From assembly GCF_028532485.1 (NCBI RefSeq), contig NZ_CP116942.1, forward strand, positions 434,001-498,000: a DNA stretch of 64,000 nucleotides, in the 5' to 3' direction. A program made the position numbers and the translations under genes. The notes beneath the pieces are model-generated. The model was given only the letters and a program-made list of their open reading frames with translations. It was not told the DNA's origin and did no database searches. The DNA comes from Iamia majanohamensis. GTDB lineage: Bacteria > Actinomycetota > Acidimicrobiia > Acidimicrobiales > Iamiaceae. Of this stretch, positions 54,451 through 64,000 are shown piece after piece (within the stretch, counting starts at the first letter, position 1; each line of letters begins with the position of its first letter).

Positions 54451-55602
54451 GTGGAGACCGACGACGCCCCGCCCCCGGTCGCGCCCGGCGCGCCCGCCGT
54501 CGCGGACCCCGTCGCCCCGCCCCCGCCCCTGCGCCCGCCCCGGGCGCGGTGGCATCCGATCTGGTGGGTGCTGGGGACCTGCCTGGTGCTGGTCGCCCTC
54601 CTGGTGGGGGCGGCGGGCGTGGTGCGCGCTCCCTACGTCGTGTTCGCCCCCGGGTCGGCCTTCGACACCGAGGAGGCCATCTCCACGCCGGGCACCGAGT
54701 CCTACCCCTCCGACGGCGAGGTGCTCTTCCTCACCGTGTCGCTGCGGGGCGCCAGCCGCCAGATCGGCTACGTGGAGGCGGCCGTGGGGTGGCTGCGGGG
54801 CGACTACGACGTGGCCCCCCGCAAGGCGATCATCGGTGACCAGACCGGGGCCGAGAACCGCCAGCAGAGCCTCCAGGCCATGACCGGCTCCCAGGAGGTG
54901 GCGAGCAAGGTCGCCCTCGAGCACCTCGGCTACGACGTGCCCACCGAGGGCACCGGCGCCCAGGTCCTGAGCGTGGTCCGGGACGCGCCGGTCGCCGAGG
55001 TGCTTGCCCCCGGCGACGTCATCGTCGGCGTCGACGGCGAGGAGATCGACCTCGACTCCCAGCTGCGCGCCGCGCTGGCCGACGAGGCGCCGGGCGACGA
55101 GGTCGCGCTGGCCGTGCAGCGCGGGGGCGAGGGTGACCCGGTCGACGTCGCCACCGAGCTGGTGGCCGACCCCGAGGACACCGAGCGGGCCCTGCTCGGC
55201 GTGGGCGTGGCGACCCGTGACCTGTCCTACGAGCTCCCCTTCCCGGTCGACATCGACACCGAGGACGTGGGCGGGCCCTCGGCCGGGCTGGCCCTCACCC
55301 TGGGCATCCTCGACCACCTGACGCCGGGGTCGCTGACCGGCGGCATCGACGTGGCCACCACCGGCACCATGGAGCCCGACGGCACCGTGGGCGAGGTCGG
55401 GGGCGTGGCCCAGAAGGCGGTGGCCGCCCGCGCCGCCGGGGCCACGCTCATGCTCGTCCCCGAGGCCGAGCTCGACGACGCCACCCGCCTCGCCCCCGAG
55501 GACCTCCGGGTGGTGGGGGTCGCCGACCTCGACGACGCCCTGGCGGCCCTGGCCGAGGTGGGGGGCAACGCCCTGGAGCTCGACACCAGCGGCGGCGGTT
55601 GA
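54451..55602 (+). CDS. PDZ-Lon-like protease (YlbL family)
   Basis: A 383-residue protein: Pro-rich N-terminus, one membrane helix (about 33-54), a PDZ-like domain (about 165-245) and a Lon-type protease domain at the end. The catalytic dyad is S277 in GGPSAGLA and K322 in VAQKAVAA. The intact dyad and layout match the S16 YlbL proteins. It acts outside the membrane or at its surface, perhaps processing envelope or signalling proteins. GTG at 54451; a CAGGCT 9 bases upstream is a poor -10. Confidence 0.88.
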   Translation: METDDAPPPVAPGAPAVADPVAPPPPLRPPRARWHPIWWVLGTCLVLVALLVGAAGVVRAPYVVFAPGSAFDTEEAISTPGTESYPSDGEVLFLTVSLRGASRQIGYVEAAVGWLRGDYDVAPRKAIIGDQTGAENRQQSLQAMTGSQEVASKVALEHLGYDVPTEGTGAQVLSVVRDAPVAEVLAPGDVIVGVDGEEIDLDSQLRAALADEAPGDEVALAVQRGGEGDPVDVATELVADPEDTERALLGVGVATRDLSYELPFPVDIDTEDVGGPSAGLALTLGILDHLTPGSLTGGIDVATTGTMEPDGTVGEVGGVAQKAVAARAAGATLMLVPEAELDDATRLAPEDLRVVGVADLDDALAALAEVGGNALELDTSGGG

Positions 55603-55614
55603 CCCCGCCCGGCC

Positions 55615-58290
55615 ATGACGACCACCGCCACCCTCGTCCAGCTGGCGGCGGAGCTGACCCTGTTCCTCGTCGCCCTGGCCGGGGCGGGCCTGTCGCTGCG
55701 CCACGGGTTGCTCGGCCTCGACCGGGCCGCCCGCCTCCTGCTGGTGGTCGGCTTCGCCGTCCTCGCCGTCGCCGCCTTCCTGGTCGGCTCGCTCACCGTC
55801 GACCGGGCCTCCGACCCCGCCGCCCTGGCCGCGGTGCGCGTGGCGGGGGCGGCCATCGTGGCCCTGGGGGCGCTCCGGTGGGCGGGGAGCCGGGTCGGCC
55901 GCCCCGTGCTCCTGGCCGGCCTGGGCCTGCTGGCGGTGGCCGCGGTGCTCGACGCCCAGGGGGTCGAGGTGGGCGACGGCGGGGTGGGGGCCGAGCCCCT
56001 GGTGCTGGCCGCGGCCCTGGTGATGGGGGCCGCGGTGGTGGTGGCCGGGCGCCACACCATCCCGGGCCGCATCGGCACGAGCGTGGCCGCCATCCTCCTT
56101 GCCGTCATCCTGCTCGTCTCGGTGGCCCTGTCCACGGTGATCAGCGCCACGGTGGAGGACGAGGCCCTCCGCCGCGACGGCATCCAGGTCGAGGCCGAGG
56201 CCGAGGCGGCGCGGCGCGAGGCCGAGGCCGCCCTCGACGAGGCCACCCTCGCGGCCGCCTCCCTCGCTGCCGGGCGCGGCGACCAGCTGCGGGCCCTCGC
56301 CACCGACCCCGGCGGCCCCGCCGCCCCGGCCGCCCGCCAGGAGCTGGGCTCGGCCCTCGCCGTCCTGGCCGGACCCGACGGCCTGGCGGTCTCGGGGCCG
56401 GTCGTCGTGGTCGGGCCCACGGGTGTGCCCGAGGCGGCGGCGCCCGCCTCGCTCGACGGGTCGACCCGCCTGGCCCTCGGGGGCGACCCCGTGGTGGAGG
56501 AGGCGCGCGAGCTCGACGCGCCCCGCCAGGGCGTGACCGCGGTGGGGACCGACGCCTACGCGCTGGCCGCGGCGCCGCTCCGCGTCGACGGGGAGGAGGG
56601 GCGGACCACCGCGGGCGTCCTGGTGGTGGCCCGGCCCCTCGACGCCACCTTCCTCCGGCGCCAGGGGGGCGACGAGGCCGACGGCCGGGCCCTCGTGACC
56701 CGCGAGGGGGTGGTGGCCGAGGAGGGGCCCCAGCCGACGCCCGAGGTGGTGGCCGAGCAGGCGGCCACCGCCCTCGGCTCCGACGCGCCCCAGGAGGCGG
56801 TGGTGGGCGGGCGCATCGTCGTGGCCCGCCCGGTGGGCTCCGAGGGCCTGCCGCCGGAGCTGGCCCTGGTGCTCTCGGGGCCCACCGATCGCGTCGGTCG
56901 CACCCGGGAGGACATCTACCGGTCCCTCTTCCTCGTGGCCCTGGCCGCGGGCCTGGGCGGCATGGCCCTGGCCACGCTGGTCGGCGAGCGCATCGGGGGC
57001 GGCATCCGGCGCCTCACCGCGGCGGCGTCGCGGATCCGGGAGGGCGACCTCGAGGCCCGGGCCGCGGTCGACCGCGAGGACGAGCTGGGCGAGCTGTCCT
57101 CCACCTTCGACGCCATGGCTGGGTCGCTGCGGGGCCTCACCGGCGAGCTCCGGGAGACGGCCGCCTCCGAGGCCCGCCTGCGCGCCCGGCTGGAGACGGT
57201 GTTCGCCGGGGTCACCGAGGCGGTGGTGGCCACCGACGGCGACGGGCGGGTGACCGAGGCCAACCGGGCCGCCGAGGAGCTGCTCGGGGGCCGCCGGGCC
57301 GACCTCGTCGACCGTCCCCTCGTGGAGGTGGTGGCCCTGCGCGACGCCGAGGGGGCGTCGGTCGTGCTCGAGGCCCCGCCGTCGGGCCCCGTCGTGGTGG
57401 CCGGCGACCTCGACCCCACCGACGGCTCCGACCCGGTCCCGGTGGTCGGGACCCTGGCCCGCCTGCGCGACGAGGACGGCGCCGGGGCGGGCACCGTCGT
57501 CGTGCTGCGCGACGTCCGCCGGGAGCGGGCCCTGGAGGTGGCCAAGCGCGACTTCCTGGCCAACATCGGCCACGAGCTCCGGACCCCCCTCACCCCCATC
57601 AAGGGCTACGCCGGGGTGCTGCGCCGTCGGGCGCCGACCCCCGACCAGGCCCGCGACTGGGCCGAGGGCATCTCCGCCGGGGTCACGCGCCTCGAGCACC
57701 TCGTCGACCGCCTGGTGGCCTTCTCGGCCCTCTCGGCCGGGGCCGAGGTCGGCGGCGGCCCCGCGCCCGACGCGGTCGACGCCTCGGCCCTGGTCCGGGA
57801 GGTGGCGGCGGCCTGGACCGCCCGGGTCGACGGGGACCGGACGGTGCGGGCCCCCGCGGGGGGCGAGGAGCTGGCGGTGGAGGGGGTCCGGGACCAGCTC
57901 CGCCTGGCCCTCGACGAGCTGGTCGACAACGCCGTCCGCTTCTCGCCCGCGGGGTCGCCGGTGCGGGTCGAGGCCGCCGCCGAGGACGACGTCGACCTCG
58001 GTCCCGTGGTCGCCCTCACCGTCGGCGACCAGGGCACCTCGGACGCCACCGTGCTGGAGGAGGCGGTCGCCGCCTTCCGCCAGGGCGACGCCTCCGCCAC
58101 CCGCGCGCGGGACGGCCTGGGCCTGGGCCTGGCGCTCAGCGAGCGCATCGCCGTGGCCCACGGGGGGCGGCTGCGCATCGTCGCCCCTTCCTCGGGGGGC
58201 ACCGACGTCTCTATTCTCGTGCCCGTGGTCACGCGCGCGCCGGGGGCCGTCGACGCCCCGCCCGACCCCGATCCGGGGGGCGCGCGGTGA
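55615..58290 (+). CDS. Orphan sensor histidine kinase (HAMP-PAS-HisKA)
   Basis: An 891-residue kinase. The first about 170 residues have several membrane helices, followed by an extracytoplasmic sensor domain (about 185-430), a further helix, HAMP (about 460-510), PAS (about 530-630), HisKA with H653 (FLANIGHELRTPLTP) and HATPase (LDELVDNAVRFSPAGSP, GLGLGLALSERIAVAHGG). The G1 box reads VGDQGTS, unlike the usual DxGxG. No response regulator is near, so it is an orphan. It follows the Lon-like protease by 12 bases and overlaps the FecR-like gene by 4. Confidence 0.88.
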   Translation: MTTTATLVQLAAELTLFLVALAGAGLSLRHGLLGLDRAARLLLVVGFAVLAVAAFLVGSLTVDRASDPAALAAVRVAGAAIVALGALRWAGSRVGRPVLLAGLGLLAVAAVLDAQGVEVGDGGVGAEPLVLAAALVMGAAVVVAGRHTIPGRIGTSVAAILLAVILLVSVALSTVISATVEDEALRRDGIQVEAEAEAARREAEAALDEATLAAASLAAGRGDQLRALATDPGGPAAPAARQELGSALAVLAGPDGLAVSGPVVVVGPTGVPEAAAPASLDGSTRLALGGDPVVEEARELDAPRQGVTAVGTDAYALAAAPLRVDGEEGRTTAGVLVVARPLDATFLRRQGGDEADGRALVTREGVVAEEGPQPTPEVVAEQAATALGSDAPQEAVVGGRIVVARPVGSEGLPPELALVLSGPTDRVGRTREDIYRSLFLVALAAGLGGMALATLVGERIGGGIRRLTAAASRIREGDLEARAAVDREDELGELSSTFDAMAGSLRGLTGELRETAASEARLRARLETVFAGVTEAVVATDGDGRVTEANRAAEELLGGRRADLVDRPLVEVVALRDAEGASVVLEAPPSGPVVVAGDLDPTDGSDPVPVVGTLARLRDEDGAGAGTVVVLRDVRRERALEVAKRDFLANIGHELRTPLTPIKGYAGVLRRRAPTPDQARDWAEGISAGVTRLEHLVDRLVAFSALSAGAEVGGGPAPDAVDASALVREVAAAWTARVDGDRTVRAPAGGEELAVEGVRDQLRLALDELVDNAVRFSPAGSPVRVEAAAEDDVDLGPVVALTVGDQGTSDATVLEEAVAAFRQGDASATRARDGLGLGLALSERIAVAHGGRLRIVAPSSGGTDVSILVPVVTRAPGAVDAPPDPDPGGAR

Positions 58291-59920
58291 CGCCCCTGCT
58301 CGCGCCCGACCGGGCCGACCCCGGCGACCCGGCCGGTCCGGCCGGTCGGGCCGAGGGCGAGACGGCCGCGGGGTCGACCGGGCGCGTCGACCGGCTGCGC
58401 CGCCTCTGGGTCGTGCCCGCCGCCGTGGTCGTGGTGGCGGCGCTGGCGCTCCTCCCGCGGGTCGGCGACGGGGGGCCGGGTCCGGGCGAGGCCCGCGTCG
58501 AGGTCGACGGGACGGCCGCCGTGGTCCGCGACGACGGGGTGGCCACCACCGTCACCGACGACACCGTGGCCCTCGGCCCCGGCGACGTGCTCGAGGTGGT
58601 GGAGGGCCAGGCCCGCTTCACCCTCGCCGAGGAGGTGCGCCTCGAGGGACGGGCCGAGCCGTCCGTGGGTGGGCGCTCGGGCACCACCGTGGAGATGGGC
58701 TCCGTGCCCGAGCTCCTCGCCGGGCCCCTGCTCGTCGAGGCGCCCACCCCCGTCCGGGTCGCGGCCGCCGGCTCCACCACCACCGTCGGTCCGGACGCCG
58801 ACGGCGACGGTGCCGCGCACCTCCTCCGCCGGCTGGGCCTGGGCGTGGGCTCCTACGCCGGGGCGGTCGAGGTCGACTCCGCCGGCCGCACCGTCGACCT
58901 GCCGCGCTGGCGCCGGGTGGAGGTGGCCGCCGTCGGGGCCCCGGGCCCCGCCGACCTGCCCCTGCGCTACTCCGCCACCGACCCCTGGGACCGCCGGTTC
59001 CTCGGCGACGCCCTGGCCATCGACCGCCAGCTGGCCCCGCTCCTGCGGGGCCTGTCGGCCACCGGGGCGCCCGACCTCACCGACCCCGCCGCCCTGCGCA
59101 CCGTGGTCGCCGGCCTGCCCGGTCCGGCCACCCTGGCCCCGCTGCTCGCCGACCTCCCGGCCGCCGACGACGCCCTCGTGCTCGGGGCCGTGGCCGCGGC
59201 CGGCACGGGCGGCACCTTCACCGAGCGGTGGGAGGCGGCCGCCGCCTTCCGCGCCGACGGCGCCGAGTGGGGGCTGGTCGCGACCGACCAGGGCGTGGGC
59301 CCCGCCGCGCTCCTCGACCGGGTGCGCGACGCCGTCGACGAGGCCTTCGCCGGGGCGGTCGACGCCGACCCCGACGAGGTGGCCGCGGGCCCGCCCGCCG
59401 CCGACGGCGGGGCCGGCGCGCCCACCGCCGACGCGGCCCTCAGCCCGGCGCCGACCACCGCCCCGCCCGCGGGCGCGGCCGGGACCGCCGGGGGCGCCGA
59501 CACCGGGACCGGCAGCGACGGGGCCGCCGGGGCGCGCCCGCCGGCGGCGCCACGGGGGGTGGGTCCGCGGGCACGGGTGCCGGCGGCCCCGGCTCGGGGT
59601 CGGGCGGGGCCGGGTCCGGTGGCGTCGGCGGGGCCACCGACGGCCTCGGCGGGGTGGTCGACGGGGTCGGCGGCGGGGTCGAGGGGGCCACCGACGGCCT
59701 GGGTGGCGTGGTGACGGGGGCCGGCGAGACGGCCGGTGGCGTCGTCAGCGGGGCCGGCGGCACCGTCGGCGGCCCGGTCGGCGGCGTGGTGAGCGGGGCC
59801 GGGGGTGCGGTGTCCGGGGCCGGGGGCACCGTCGGGGGCGTGGTCGACGACGCCGGCGACCTGCTCGGCGGGGTGGTGGGCGGGCTCGGCAGCGCCGGGT
59901 CCGGCCTGCTCGGGGGCTGA
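58287..59920 (+). pseudogene. FecR-like membrane protein with a probable -1 frameshift in its Gly-rich tail
   Basis: The reading frame starts with GTG at 58287, overlapping the kinase stop (GTGA). It has a cytoplasmic stretch, one membrane helix (WVVPAAVVVVAALALLP) and a FecR-like extracytoplasmic beta domain (GEARVEVDG and LEVVEGQARFTLAEEVRLEG), then an Ala/Pro/Thr linker. At about 59515-59550 the coding signal passes from this frame to the -1 frame. In the first frame the tail turns into Arg/Pro-rich sequence and stops at 59714. In the other, a Gly/Ala/Val repeat tail (GLGGVVDGVGGGVEGATDG) ends with GSGLLGG at 59920. One missing base in a GC-rich run, a true frameshift or programmed slippage would explain this. 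Confidence 0.6.
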
Positions 59921-59970
59921 AGGGGCCCGACCGCCCACCCGTCCGGGGCGTGTGACCGGTGCCGCACCAG

Positions 59971-59997
59971 GGCGGGTGCCCGGTCCGGCCACCCGCC
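59971..59997 (+). terminator. Hairpin GGCGGGTG-N11-CACCCGCC
   Basis: An 8-bp perfect inverted repeat with an 11-base loop, about 50 bases after the FecR-like tail, before the DivIVA-like gene. Confidence 0.4.
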
Positions 59998-60031
59998 GCG
60001 CGATTGCCCTCATCCGACGTGACCCCGGTCG

Positions 60032-60037
60032 TAGCAT
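60032..60037 (+). promoter_or_regulatory. -10 element TAGCAT, leaderless start
   Basis: TAGCAT ends 7 bases before the ATG at 60045; TTGCCC (60004-60009) is a distant -35-like sequence. Confidence 0.5.
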
Positions 60038-60044
60038 CGAGGCG

Positions 60045-62501
60045 ATGGCCTCCTCGTCCGACCACAGCGCGACCTCGATCACCGGCCGGTCCTTCGCCGT
60101 CCGCCGCAAGGGGTTCGACCCCGACGAGGTGCGGGCCTACCTGGGCCAGCTGGCCGAGGTCATCAGCCGCCTGACCACCGAGCGCGACGGTGCCCGGGCC
60201 GAGGTCGGCAGCCTGCGGGCGTCGGCCGAGAGCCGCCCGGAGATCGACGAGGACCAGCTCACCGAGGTGCTGGGGGAGGAGACCGCCCGGGTGCTCTCCT
60301 CGGCCCGGCGGGCCGCCACCGAGATCAAGGACCGGGCCGAGGAGACGGCGGCGCGGATGCGGCGGGAGGCGGCCGAGGAGGCCGGCGCCGTCCGGCGGGC
60401 GGCCGAGGACGACGCCGCCCGGGTGCGCGAGGAGGCCGCCGCGGTCCGGCTCGACGCCGACGAGGCCCGCCGCCGGGCCGTGGAGGCGGCCGAGGAGGCG
60501 GCCGCCCGCCTTCGCGCCGAGGCCGAGGCCGAGGCCACGGCCACCCGCGAGGCCGCCGAGCAGGAGCGGGCCGCGGCGCAGGAGGAGGCCGCGACGGTCC
60601 GGTCCGAGGCCGACGAGGCCGCCACCGCCACCCGCGCCGCGGCCGACGCGGTGCTGGGCGAGCGGACGGCCGAGGCCGAGGCGGCCGCGGCCGAGCTGGT
60701 GGCCCAGGGCCGAGTCGACGCCGACGCCATCCGCGAGGCGGCCGAGGGCGAGGCGGCCGACATCCGGGCCCGGGCCGAGGCCGACCGGGACGCCCTCCAG
60801 GACGAGGGCCGGGAGATGGTGGCCGAGGCCCAGCGGGTCCGGGAGCGGATGCTCGCCGACCTGTCCCGACGCCGGAAGGCCGCCCGGGTGCAGCTGGAGC
60901 AGCTCCAGGCCGGTCGCGACCGGCTGCTCGAGTCCTACGAGGCCGTGCAGCGCGAGGTCGACGCCGCCACCAGCGGGCTCCGCAGCGCCCTGCCCGAGGC
61001 CCGCCAGGCGGCCGAGGCGGCCCGGGTCCGGGCCGAGGCCGAGCCGGCCGACAGCGTCGACCAGCTGGAGGCCCAGATCGCCGCGGCCCGGAGCGCGGGC
61101 CTGCCCCTGGTGGCCCCGGAGGCCGCCGACACCGAGGCCGCCGCCGAGGGCGAGGGGGCGGACGGCGAGGGGCCCGTCCCCGACGGGGGCGAGGAGGCCG
61201 TCGACGCGATCGCCGCCGGCATGGCCGGGGCGGTCGAGGCCGTCGACCTCACCGAGCCGGTCGACGACACCCCCGAGGACGGCGAGCCCGCGGTCGACCT
61301 CACCGGCCCCCTCGACCTGACCGACGACGGTCCCGCCCCCGACGAGGGCGACGGGGCACCGGTCGCCGACCTCGGGGCCGAGGAGTGGCGACCCGAGGAC
61401 GACGACGGCGTGGCCGCCGAGCACGCGTCGGCCGAACCCGCGGCGGCCGAGCCCGCGCCGGAGGACGCCCCGCCGGAGGACGCCCCGCCGGAGGCGGTCG
61501 AGGTCGCCCCCGCGGCGGCAGACGAGTCGGTCGCCGGCGACCGGCCCGAGGACGAGGAGGTCGACGAGCTCTTCGCCCGGCTGCGGGCCTCGCAGGAGGG
61601 GGCGGGCGCCACCGACGGGGACGACCTCGTCGCCGACGTCGCCGACGTCGCCGACGACGCCGACGACACCGACGAGGCCGCGCCGACGGCGGCGGCGGGG
61701 GAGCACGAGGCCGAGCCCGACGGCGCCGTCGCCGGCGGCGCCCCCGACGTGGGTGCCCCCGTCGCCGCCCACGACGCACCGGCCCCGTCCGAGGGCGGGG
61801 CCGACGGGGCCGGTCCGGCCGACGGGGACGACGGCGACCCCGGCCTGGTCGACCTGCTCGAGCGGCGCGACGGCGCCATCGAGCCCATCGAGACCCGGGT
61901 CGCCCGGCGGCTGAAGCGGGTGCTGGCCGACGAGCAGGGTCGGGTGCTCGACGCGGTGCGACGGGCCAAGCGGGCCCCGGCCCTCGACGACGTCCTGCCC
62001 CTCGACGAGCAGGTCGCGGCCTACAGCGAGGCCGTCCGCGAGGACCTCCACGCCGCAGCCGAGGAGGGCGCCGCCTTCGAGGGCGCGGCCTTGCCCACCG
62101 GGTCCTCGATCGTCGGCGTCGCCGACGAGCTGGCCCGCTCCCTGGCTGCGGTGGTGCGGCCCCGGCTCGAGCGGTGCTTCGCCGCCGGCGAGGACCCCGA
62201 CGACACCTCCGACCGCCTGCGGGCCACCTACCGCGAGTGGAAGACCGACTCCCTCGTCGACGCCACCCGGCACCACGTGCTGGCCGCGTTCGGCGAGGGC
62301 CAGGGGGCGGTCCGCCCCGCCGGGGCCGCGGTGCGCTGGGTGCCCGACCCCTCGACGCCGGCCTGCCCCGACTGCGAGGACGACGCCCTCGCCAGCGCCG
62401 TCCCGTCGGGCGACGCCTTCCCCACCGGGCACTCCCACCCGCCGGCGCACCCCGGCTGCCGGTGCCTCGTCGTCACCGAGCGGGTGGGCGCACCGGCCTG
62501 A
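60045..62501 (+). CDS. DivIVA-like coiled-coil protein fused to a phage-head-protein-like C-terminal module
   Basis: An 818-residue protein. Residues 1-60 contain a DivIVA-type N-terminal motif (FAVRRKGFDPDEVRAYLGQL). A long coiled coil (about 70-350) is rich in Ala/Glu/Arg heptads. An acidic linker of about 250 residues follows (about 360-610). The last 130 residues differ: helices (RVARRLKRVLADEQGRVLDAV), then a module with C774-x-x-C777 (ACPDCEDD), an FPTGHSHPPAHPGC stretch and HPGCRC with C805 and C807. This Cys/His arrangement resembles the C-terminus of Mu gpF/SPP1 gp7-type minor head proteins. The rest resembles polar-growth proteins, which are usually about 260-400 residues, so this one is at least twice as long. 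Function of the fusion is unknown. Confidence 0.8.
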   Translation: MASSSDHSATSITGRSFAVRRKGFDPDEVRAYLGQLAEVISRLTTERDGARAEVGSLRASAESRPEIDEDQLTEVLGEETARVLSSARRAATEIKDRAEETAARMRREAAEEAGAVRRAAEDDAARVREEAAAVRLDADEARRRAVEAAEEAAARLRAEAEAEATATREAAEQERAAAQEEAATVRSEADEAATATRAAADAVLGERTAEAEAAAAELVAQGRVDADAIREAAEGEAADIRARAEADRDALQDEGREMVAEAQRVRERMLADLSRRRKAARVQLEQLQAGRDRLLESYEAVQREVDAATSGLRSALPEARQAAEAARVRAEAEPADSVDQLEAQIAAARSAGLPLVAPEAADTEAAAEGEGADGEGPVPDGGEEAVDAIAAGMAGAVEAVDLTEPVDDTPEDGEPAVDLTGPLDLTDDGPAPDEGDGAPVADLGAEEWRPEDDDGVAAEHASAEPAAAEPAPEDAPPEDAPPEAVEVAPAAADESVAGDRPEDEEVDELFARLRASQEGAGATDGDDLVADVADVADDADDTDEAAPTAAAGEHEAEPDGAVAGGAPDVGAPVAAHDAPAPSEGGADGAGPADGDDGDPGLVDLLERRDGAIEPIETRVARRLKRVLADEQGRVLDAVRRAKRAPALDDVLPLDEQVAAYSEAVREDLHAAAEEGAAFEGAALPTGSSIVGVADELARSLAAVVRPRLERCFAAGEDPDDTSDRLRATYREWKTDSLVDATRHHVLAAFGEGQGAVRPAGAAVRWVPDPSTPACPDCEDDALASAVPSGDAFPTGHSHPPAHPGCRCLVVTERVGAPA

Positions 62502-62563: not shown

Positions 62564-64000
62564 ATGCGCCCCCCCTCGGACATGCCCCGCCGCTCGTCGG
62601 GCAAGCGCCGCCTCCGCCTGCCGTCGGGCCGCGGGCGCGTCGTGCTCATCGTCGCCCTCGTCCTCCTGTTCGTCCTCGCCACCTCGCTGCGGGGCATCGC
62701 CGGCTTCTACACCGACTACCTCTGGTTCGACTCGCTCGACCTGAGCAGCGTCTGGCGGGGCGTCCTCGGCGCCAAGGTGTCGCTCGTCGTCATCTTCACG
62801 CTCGTCTTCTTCGCCCTGATGTGGGTGAACCTCACCCTCGCCGAGCGCCTCAGCGGGCGGACCGTGCGCTTCGGCGGCTCCAGCGAGGACGAGCTCGTCC
62901 TCCGCTACCGCGAGCTGGTGGGCCGGCGGTCGCTGCTGATCCGCGGGGCCACCGCCGGCCTGCTGGCCATCATCGCCGGCAGCGGCACCTCGTCGCAGTG
63001 GAACAACTGGATCCTGTTCACCAACCACACCGACTTCGGCGCCGAGGACGCCACCTTCGGCGTCGACATCGGGTTCTACGTCTTCCAGCTCCCGTTCCTG
63101 CGCTTCGTGGCCAGCTGGTTCTTCTCCGCCCTCATCGTCGTGCTGGTGGCCACGGTGGTGGCCCACTACCTGAACGGCGGCATCCGGATGCAGGCCAGCC
63201 GCGACCGGGTCAGCTCCCAGGTCAAGGCGCACGTCTCGGTGCTGCTCGCCCTCCTCGCCCTGGTGCGCGCCGGGCAGTACCTGCTCGACCGCTACGAGCT
63301 GGTCTTCTCCGGCCGGGGCCCCGTCGACGGCGCCACCTACACCGACGTGAACGTGCAGGAGAGGGCGATCCTCCTGCTCATCATGATCAGCGTCTTCGCC
63401 ACGATCCTGTTTATCGTCAACATCTGGCGGCGGGGCTGGGTGCTGCCGGCCATGGCGGTCGGGCTGTGGGCCCTGGTCGCGGTGCTCGCCGGCGAGGCCG
63501 TGCCCTCGTTCGTGCAGCGCTTCCGCGTCCCGCCCCAGGAGGCCGCCCTCGAGCGCCCGTACATCGAGAACAACATCGAGGCCACGCGCTTCGCCCTCGG
63601 CCTCGACCAGATCGACGAGCGCCCCCTCGAGGTGAACTACGACCTCACCGGCGAGGACCTGGTCGAGAACGCGGAGACGGTCAACAACATCCGGCTGTGG
63701 GACACGGCCCAGCTGCAGCGCACCTTCCAGCGCTTCCAGGCCGTGCGCGACTTCTACGACGTGCCCGACGTCGACGTCGACCGCTACGTGATCCAGGACG
63801 GACCCCAGGAGGGGTCGGTCCAGCAGGTGATGGTCGCCTCCCGCCAGATCGACGACGCCAACCTGCCCAGCGACACCTGGGAGGCGTCCCGCCTCGTCTA
63901 CACCGCCGGCTACGGCGTGATCATGGCGCCGGCCAACGCCAAGACCAGCAACGGCCAGCCCTCCCTCGTCGAGCGGGACATCCCGATCGAGACCGACGAG
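62564..64000 (+). CDS. UPF0182-family membrane protein (3' end outside window)
   Basis: The first 479 residues of a long protein that runs off the right edge. A basic N-terminus (RRSSGKRRLRLPSGRGR) precedes about seven membrane helices (residues 27 to about 310), with FYTDYLWFDSLDLSSVWRG and GVDIGFYVFQLPFLRFV between early helices, features of UPF0182. After about 320 the extracytoplasmic part starts (FRVPPQEAALERPYIENNIE, YDVPDVDVDRYVI). Members are usually 900-1000 residues; function is unknown. Confidence 0.88.
   Translation, partial: MRPPSDMPRRSSGKRRLRLPSGRGRVVLIVALVLLFVLATSLRGIAGFYTDYLWFDSLDLSSVWRGVLGAKVSLVVIFTLVFFALMWVNLTLAERLSGRTVRFGGSSEDELVLRYRELVGRRSLLIRGATAGLLAIIAGSGTSSQWNNWILFTNHTDFGAEDATFGVDIGFYVFQLPFLRFVASWFFSALIVVLVATVVAHYLNGGIRMQASRDRVSSQVKAHVSVLLALLALVRAGQYLLDRYELVFSGRGPVDGATYTDVNVQERAILLLIMISVFATILFIVNIWRRGWVLPAMAVGLWALVAVLAGEAVPSFVQRFRVPPQEAALERPYIENNIEATRFALGLDQIDERPLEVNYDLTGEDLVENAETVNNIRLWDTAQLQRTFQRFQAVRDFYDVPDVDVDRYVIQDGPQEGSVQQVMVASRQIDDANLPSDTWEASRLVYTAGYGVIMAPANAKTSNGQPSLVERDIPIETDE

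Follow-up and report, generated by a model that had tools for sequence, protein, structure and literature searches.

Background

DivIVA proteins such as Wag31 (PF05103) are characterized by an N-terminal RRKGFDPDEV-type motif followed by a coiled coil, and known DivIVA domains oligomerize and settle on negatively curved membrane at the poles or the septum. A location in the dcw region beside sepF is typical of the housekeeping DivIVA, although it is not required of every paralogue. The DivIVAs of the Acidimicrobiales were covered by a survey of DivIVA-like proteins in 2023, the text of which contains neither "phage" nor "MuF" (PMC9858780). The MuF domain (PF04233, TIGR01641; for instance, Mu gpF and SPP1 gp7) is among the commonest phage head domains and is of unknown function, apart from the docking of SPP1 gp7 on the portal oligomer (PMC5576092). 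It also occurs in MuF polymorphic toxins, in which it is an N-terminal transport or docking module with the toxin after it (Jamet et al. 2017, PMC5576092).

The window, i.e. the whole stretch of 64,000 nucleotides of Iamia majanohamensis that was analysed, contains a gene in which both families are joined. DivIVA and MuF domains are each already known, but their joint architecture is unusual, and no report of a DivIVA-MuF fusion was found in the open-access literature searched. The encoded protein shares the N-terminal motif and the coiled coil with DivIVA/Wag31, and the helical core followed by W...C..C...F...PPAHPGCRC with phage MuF proteins. It resembles MuF polymorphic toxins in being a multidomain protein with a MuF module, although the latter stands last, with neither a toxin nor a prophage. 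The MuF domain of PHROG 2662 phage proteins follows a portal protein, whereas that of the window protein follows a DivIVA coiled coil.

Architecture of the fusion protein

Translation of the window sequence showed that the ORF encodes 818 amino acids plus a stop, with the domain order DivIVA N-terminus, long coiled coil, acidic linker and, at the C-terminus, a domain of about 200 residues. The features are as follows:

60045..62501, + strand: DivIVA-MuF fusion protein, 818 aa plus stop (translation, profile searches)
60069..60440, + strand: DivIVA domain, residues 9-132 (PF05103 match, homologue alignment)
60441..61049, + strand: Ala/Glu/Arg-rich long coiled coil, about residues 133-335 (sequence, conservation in homologues)
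61050..61844, + strand: acidic low-complexity linker, residues 336-600 (composition)
61899..62498, + strand: MuF-like domain, residues 619-818 (AlphaFold, PHROG 2662, BFVD, hhalign)
62364..62465, + strand: Cys/His motif CPDC...FPTGHSHPPAHPGCRC (conservation in 70 homologues, alignments)

The stop-to-stop frame extends beyond this ORF, but the start was taken at the ATG at 60045 because the same-genus homologue L222 shares it (MASSSDHSATSITGRSFAVRRKGFDPDEV versus MATSSDHSAAGISSRAFAVRRKGFDPDEV). Long ORFs on the opposite strand (e.g. 59745-62450) were rejected as high-GC mirror frames.

The preliminary description of this DNA had likened the N-terminus to DivIVA/Wag31, which was borne out by a profile search, as PF05103 matched residues 9-132 (E 1.3e-9) with 38.6 bits, above the curated cut-off of 28. 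The DivIVA score of outgroup homologues likewise exceeded the cut-off. This domain consists of the N-terminal membrane-curvature module (RRKGFDPDEVRAYL) and the beginning of the coiled coil, which holds a segment conserved in the homologue alignment, GREMVxEAxxxRERxLxxLxRRRKxARxQxEQL. The long acidic linker described earlier was confirmed too, residues 336-600 being an acidic Ala/Pro/Gly stretch with 29% D+E and 2% K+R. The length of the protein, with its linker and MuF head, and its location outside the dcw/sepF cluster distinguish it from DivIVA/Wag31. Indeed, the same genome encodes a canonical DivIVA of 379 aa directly beside sepF (L031), whereas the DivIVA-MuF gene adjoins a UPF0182 gene. 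The presence of this separate DivIVA indicates that DivIVA-MuF is a paralogue serving a different function. Most relatives, too, had two or three DivIVA matches.

As a separate observation, the genome contains a third, weakly DivIVA-like protein, encoded by a 366-aa ORF (G000:C1:277953-278048; L033:796-1896, - strand), which has a coiled-coil region and a brief DivIVA motif at its N-terminus; its gene adjoins an acetyl-CoA acetyltransferase-like gene.

Homology of the C-terminal domain to phage MuF proteins

In the AlphaFold model, residues ~619-818 form a compact domain (pLDDT 94.5, pTM 0.87), the five main helices of which lead into a small strand region with the Cys/His residues. The conserved domain thus spans about 200 residues, more than the C-terminal module of ~130 residues that had been delimited beforehand. 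In single-sequence searches, the window protein reached 16.4-16.8 bits against PF04233, under the curated gathering cut-off of 29.6, and E 0.09 against TIGR01641; the outgroup homologue L201 reached 24.2 bits against PF04233. Across 54 homologues, PF04233 matched 26 at E<=1, the best at 3.7e-5. Because the score lies under the curated cut-off, the domain is regarded as a divergent MuF homologue rather than a strict PF04233 member. The best family match in a whole-domain search was PHROG 2662, a phage portal protein with a MuF end (E 4.2e-10), covering residues 30-193 of the 200-aa domain; it matched 42 of the 54 homologues at E<=0.001, the best at 1.1e-15. Furthermore, profile-profile comparison (hhalign) of the cellular domain with 14 phage MuF proteins gave a probability of 99.1% (E 8e-19) over 116 columns that cover both helices and motif, whereas the DivIVA half of the cellular proteins, used as a negative control, gave 0.1%.

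Fold comparison pointed in the same direction. A Foldseek search of the window domain against viral models (BFVD) returned 18 matches at E<=0.001, the named ones being nearly all phage head morphogenesis, minor capsid or MuF-like proteins. Similarly, a homologue from another class, modelled separately (pLDDT 93.0), gave 52 BFVD matches at E<=0.001, mainly phage head proteins. The probability was 0.99-1.00 for most BFVD matches, with TMq varying from 0.35 to 0.77. A fold search of the PDB with the domain gave no match, a PDB sequence search yielded nothing useful (best match ZorA, E 0.02, only over a helical stretch), and tblastn of the single sequence against phages gave one match at 1e-4 and otherwise weak ones. 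The C-terminal domain is homologous to the MuF superfamily, and the earlier claim of a relationship with phage head proteins is upheld by profile, controlled profile-profile and fold comparisons alike. Neither outcome that had been named in advance as refuting it, an N-terminus unlike DivIVA or a C-terminus without similarity to PF04233, was obtained.

The motifs CPDC, FPTGHSHPPAHPGC and HPGCRC are found at residues 774-807, and the protein stops 11 residues past HPGCRC; its homologues likewise end soon after the motif. As no toxin domain follows MuF, assignment to the MuF polymorphic toxins was rejected. In 70 non-redundant homologues, K624, R625, D629, R705, Y729, R730, W765, G789, P793, P800, H802, C805, R806 and C807 are invariant, and C774 is conserved in 96%. 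The CPDC noted beforehand needs a correction at its second Cys (C777), which is frequently replaced by Ala among relatives (CPDA). A putative minimal metal-binding set, as judged from sequence conservation, would comprise C774, H802, C805 and C807, the conservation figures of which apply within the Acidimicrobiia; these Cys/His ligands are lost in some divergent members.

Because these residues are invariant or nearly so across 70 homologues, the Cys/His motifs are not there by chance. A chance motif was rejected on the basis of this conservation, the PHROG 2662 matches and the profile-profile result. A broader form of coincidence would have a Cys/His zinc module evolve independently on a DivIVA protein, without common ancestry with phage MuF, as could fit the PF04233 single-sequence score under the cut-off and the lack of a PDB match. 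However, the alignment to phage MuF includes the helices as well as the motif, most homologues match one and the same phage family, and both separately modelled domains retrieve mainly phage head proteins, making such convergence very unlikely.

Distribution and phylogeny

The domain was present in 51 of 61 relatives, in 152 of 247 genomes from a sample of the class Acidimicrobiia, and in 53 of 396 genomes from a sample of the phylum, where families that do not belong to the class were among the carriers; this phylum sample is also what covers the Actinomycetes proper. A contig search retrieved named homologues that all belong to the Acidimicrobiia (Ilumatobacter, Desertimonas and many MAGs). 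The fusion that the preliminary description proposed to look for in related genomes was indeed found, as the N-terminal 60 residues of DivIVA were present in 112 of 126 MuF-bearing ORFs. The other 14 were mostly cut by contig ends, although two are damaged (L106, L046) and one is a fragment (L214). Two ORFs (L205, L206), at the same operon position, contain MuF and the coiled coil but truly seem to lack the DivIVA N-terminal membrane motif, indicating that polar targeting cannot be universal.

Across families, the MuF domain retains 40-50% identity besides its invariant residues. In a tree of 32 DivIVA-linked and 44 phage MuF domains, a single branch separates all the DivIVA-linked ones from the rest (bootstrap 95, SH-aLRT 81). 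Because the phage rows were picked by motifs of the cellular family, the tree supports a single origin without naming a donor. From the breadth of MuF in phages, we infer a transfer from phage to cell, a direction that goes beyond what the tree proves.

As 96% of the muf genes in bacterial genomes sit in prophages or their remnants (PMC5576092), the MuF part might stem from an integrated phage, read through by accident in recent times. However, neither a large terminase (PF03354) nor a second MuF-like protein was matched in the genome, and the same fusion occurs with the same synteny in many families. Instead of portal or terminase genes, in a phage or prophage, the neighbours of this core-like chromosomal gene encode YlbL, a kinase and UPF0182. 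This conserved synteny refutes a prophage remnant, to which we give practically no credence. The earlier interpretation of the C-terminus as a domesticated phage module is supported by the class-wide conservation, the single clade, the conserved non-phage synteny and the lack of a large-terminase match.

Genomic neighbourhood

The genes that surround the fusion gene are as follows:

54484..55602, + strand: YlbL-type PDZ / Lon-C membrane protease (PF13180, E 1.4e-11; PF05362, E 2.2e-8)
55615..58290, + strand: membrane histidine kinase, HAMP-PAS-HisKA-HATPase (Pfam)
58287..59920, + strand: membrane-anchored FecR-like protein (read from sequence; conserved gene of relatives)
62564..64000, past the window end, + strand: UPF0182 membrane protein, 1044 aa (PF03699, E 2.7e-236; synteny)

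The UPF0182 gene is complete at L221:12565-15696. It was the downstream neighbour on the same strand in all 45 MuF-positive loci examined, at a spacing mostly below ~100 nt or with overlapping stop-to-stop frames. The YlbL-type protease, the histidine kinase and the FecR-like protein were found upstream in 33, 18 and 11 of the 45 loci, respectively, some loci being too short to reveal them. This defines a conserved operon: YlbL protease - (histidine kinase - FecR-like protein) - DivIVA-MuF - UPF0182.

Two further observations concern these neighbours. A universal-stress-protein-like gene (L259:3478-3948, + strand) is located between the DivIVA-MuF and UPF0182 genes of one locus. The FecR-like protein, named from its sequence as it gave no Pfam match, is encoded in one frame until near position 59400, after which a Gly-rich end apparently follows in a second frame (ORF 59228-59920); relatives have a single long ORF (L222, 662 aa). 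The gene may be broken, or its GC-rich repeats may contain an indel or a sequencing error.

UPF0182 was present in 230 of the 247 class genomes, compared with 152 for the MuF domain. As lineages that have no fusion still retain UPF0182, the latter does not need it; a fusion away from UPF0182 was never seen among the loci examined. Degraded fusions decay stepwise from the 3' end (Cys/His end, MuF, whole gene) while YlbL and UPF0182 stay adjacent. Five loci kept DivIVA and the MuF helices without the Cys/His part (L251, L252, L254, L257, L258), three had a DivIVA without MuF at the same position (L244, L255, L256), and in the ~1 Mb genomes of family f48 (L241-L243), as well as in L245-L246, YlbL directly precedes UPF0182, the fusion gene being gone. 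Genome G072 has two UPF0182 genes, and upstream of each lies a DivIVA gene whose MuF part is truncated (L251, L252), the pair seemingly having been duplicated together.

Two other functions of the MuF head are less consistent with this synteny. DivIVA tethers the chromosome via other partners, and the MuF head could itself be a DNA- or nucleoid-binding module by which the chromosome, or its replication origin, is anchored at the pole or septum. The invariant basic residues K624, R625, R705 and R730 and the HxxCRC end would suit such a role, and a reference cited in PMC5576092 calls SPP1 gp7 DNA-binding in its title. However, the gene adjoins a membrane protein gene rather than parABS genes, and degraded members drop the Cys/His part yet keep the helical core, so that we consider nucleoid tethering unlikely. 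Several observations speak against the second function, an anti-phage decoy: a spread across the class that looks vertical, a single clade, an unchanging gene neighbourhood with UPF0182 and YlbL, and little turnover across families. Defence genes, in contrast, usually vary among strains and sit in islands. A membrane-held host MuF that poisons the capsid or portal assembly of infecting phages might nevertheless be envisaged, as MuF proteins bind the portal (PMC5576092) and defence that blocks virion assembly is known from other systems (PMC10884400); we regard this decoy function as distinctly improbable.

Proposed origin and function

The explanation that we judge, as a whole, to be rather probable is that of a second, non-dcw DivIVA paralogue of the Acidimicrobiia and some related classes that captured a MuF domain of the phage portal-MuF / minor head protein superfamily once, long ago, and that acts as a scaffold docking UPF0182. 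Alongside the domain composition, shared MuF fold, deep conservation, single clade and conserved operon that were observed, we infer the client and localization of DivIVA-MuF. First, the DivIVA half would oligomerize and settle on negatively curved membrane at the poles or septum, like known DivIVAs. Second, the acidic linker may keep the MuF head clear of this scaffold. Third, the MuF head would be reused as a protein-docking module, stabilized by a putative C/H/C/C metal site. Its main client may be the co-encoded UPF0182 membrane protein, which, together with the adjacent protease and sensor kinase, would be recruited to sites of growth or division or clustered there. More tentatively, a single ancient capture might have turned a portal-docking MuF into a dedicated polar or septal receptor that positions a UPF0182 complex in the Acidimicrobiia and related classes.

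Rv3193c, which we take to be the UPF0182 protein of M. tuberculosis, offers a comparison. In its mycobacterial locus, UPF0182 lies near a YlbL-type PDZ protease gene, as in the DivIVA-MuF loci, but to our knowledge that locus contains no DivIVA-MuF gene. In a study that lists Rv3193c solely as a hypothetical protein with 7 TM segments, its transposon mutants are depleted in the absence of the division protein Rv0954 (PMC8093794), which lends indirect support to an envelope or division role of UPF0182. In addition, YlbL of B. subtilis is a cell-division checkpoint protease that acts in checkpoint recovery (PMC6051672).

These results suggest that a viral part was put to use in the bacterial envelope long ago, in a way not described so far. 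It would be unusual for a virion-assembly domain to have become a core part of bacterial morphogenesis, a viral capsid-assembly interface having been made, if the proposal is true, into growth or division machinery. As UPF0182 is uncharacterized, like MuF, the location of DivIVA-MuF beside it provides a direct, testable hypothesis for both families and, if true, would open a tractable route to the functions of both MuF and UPF0182.
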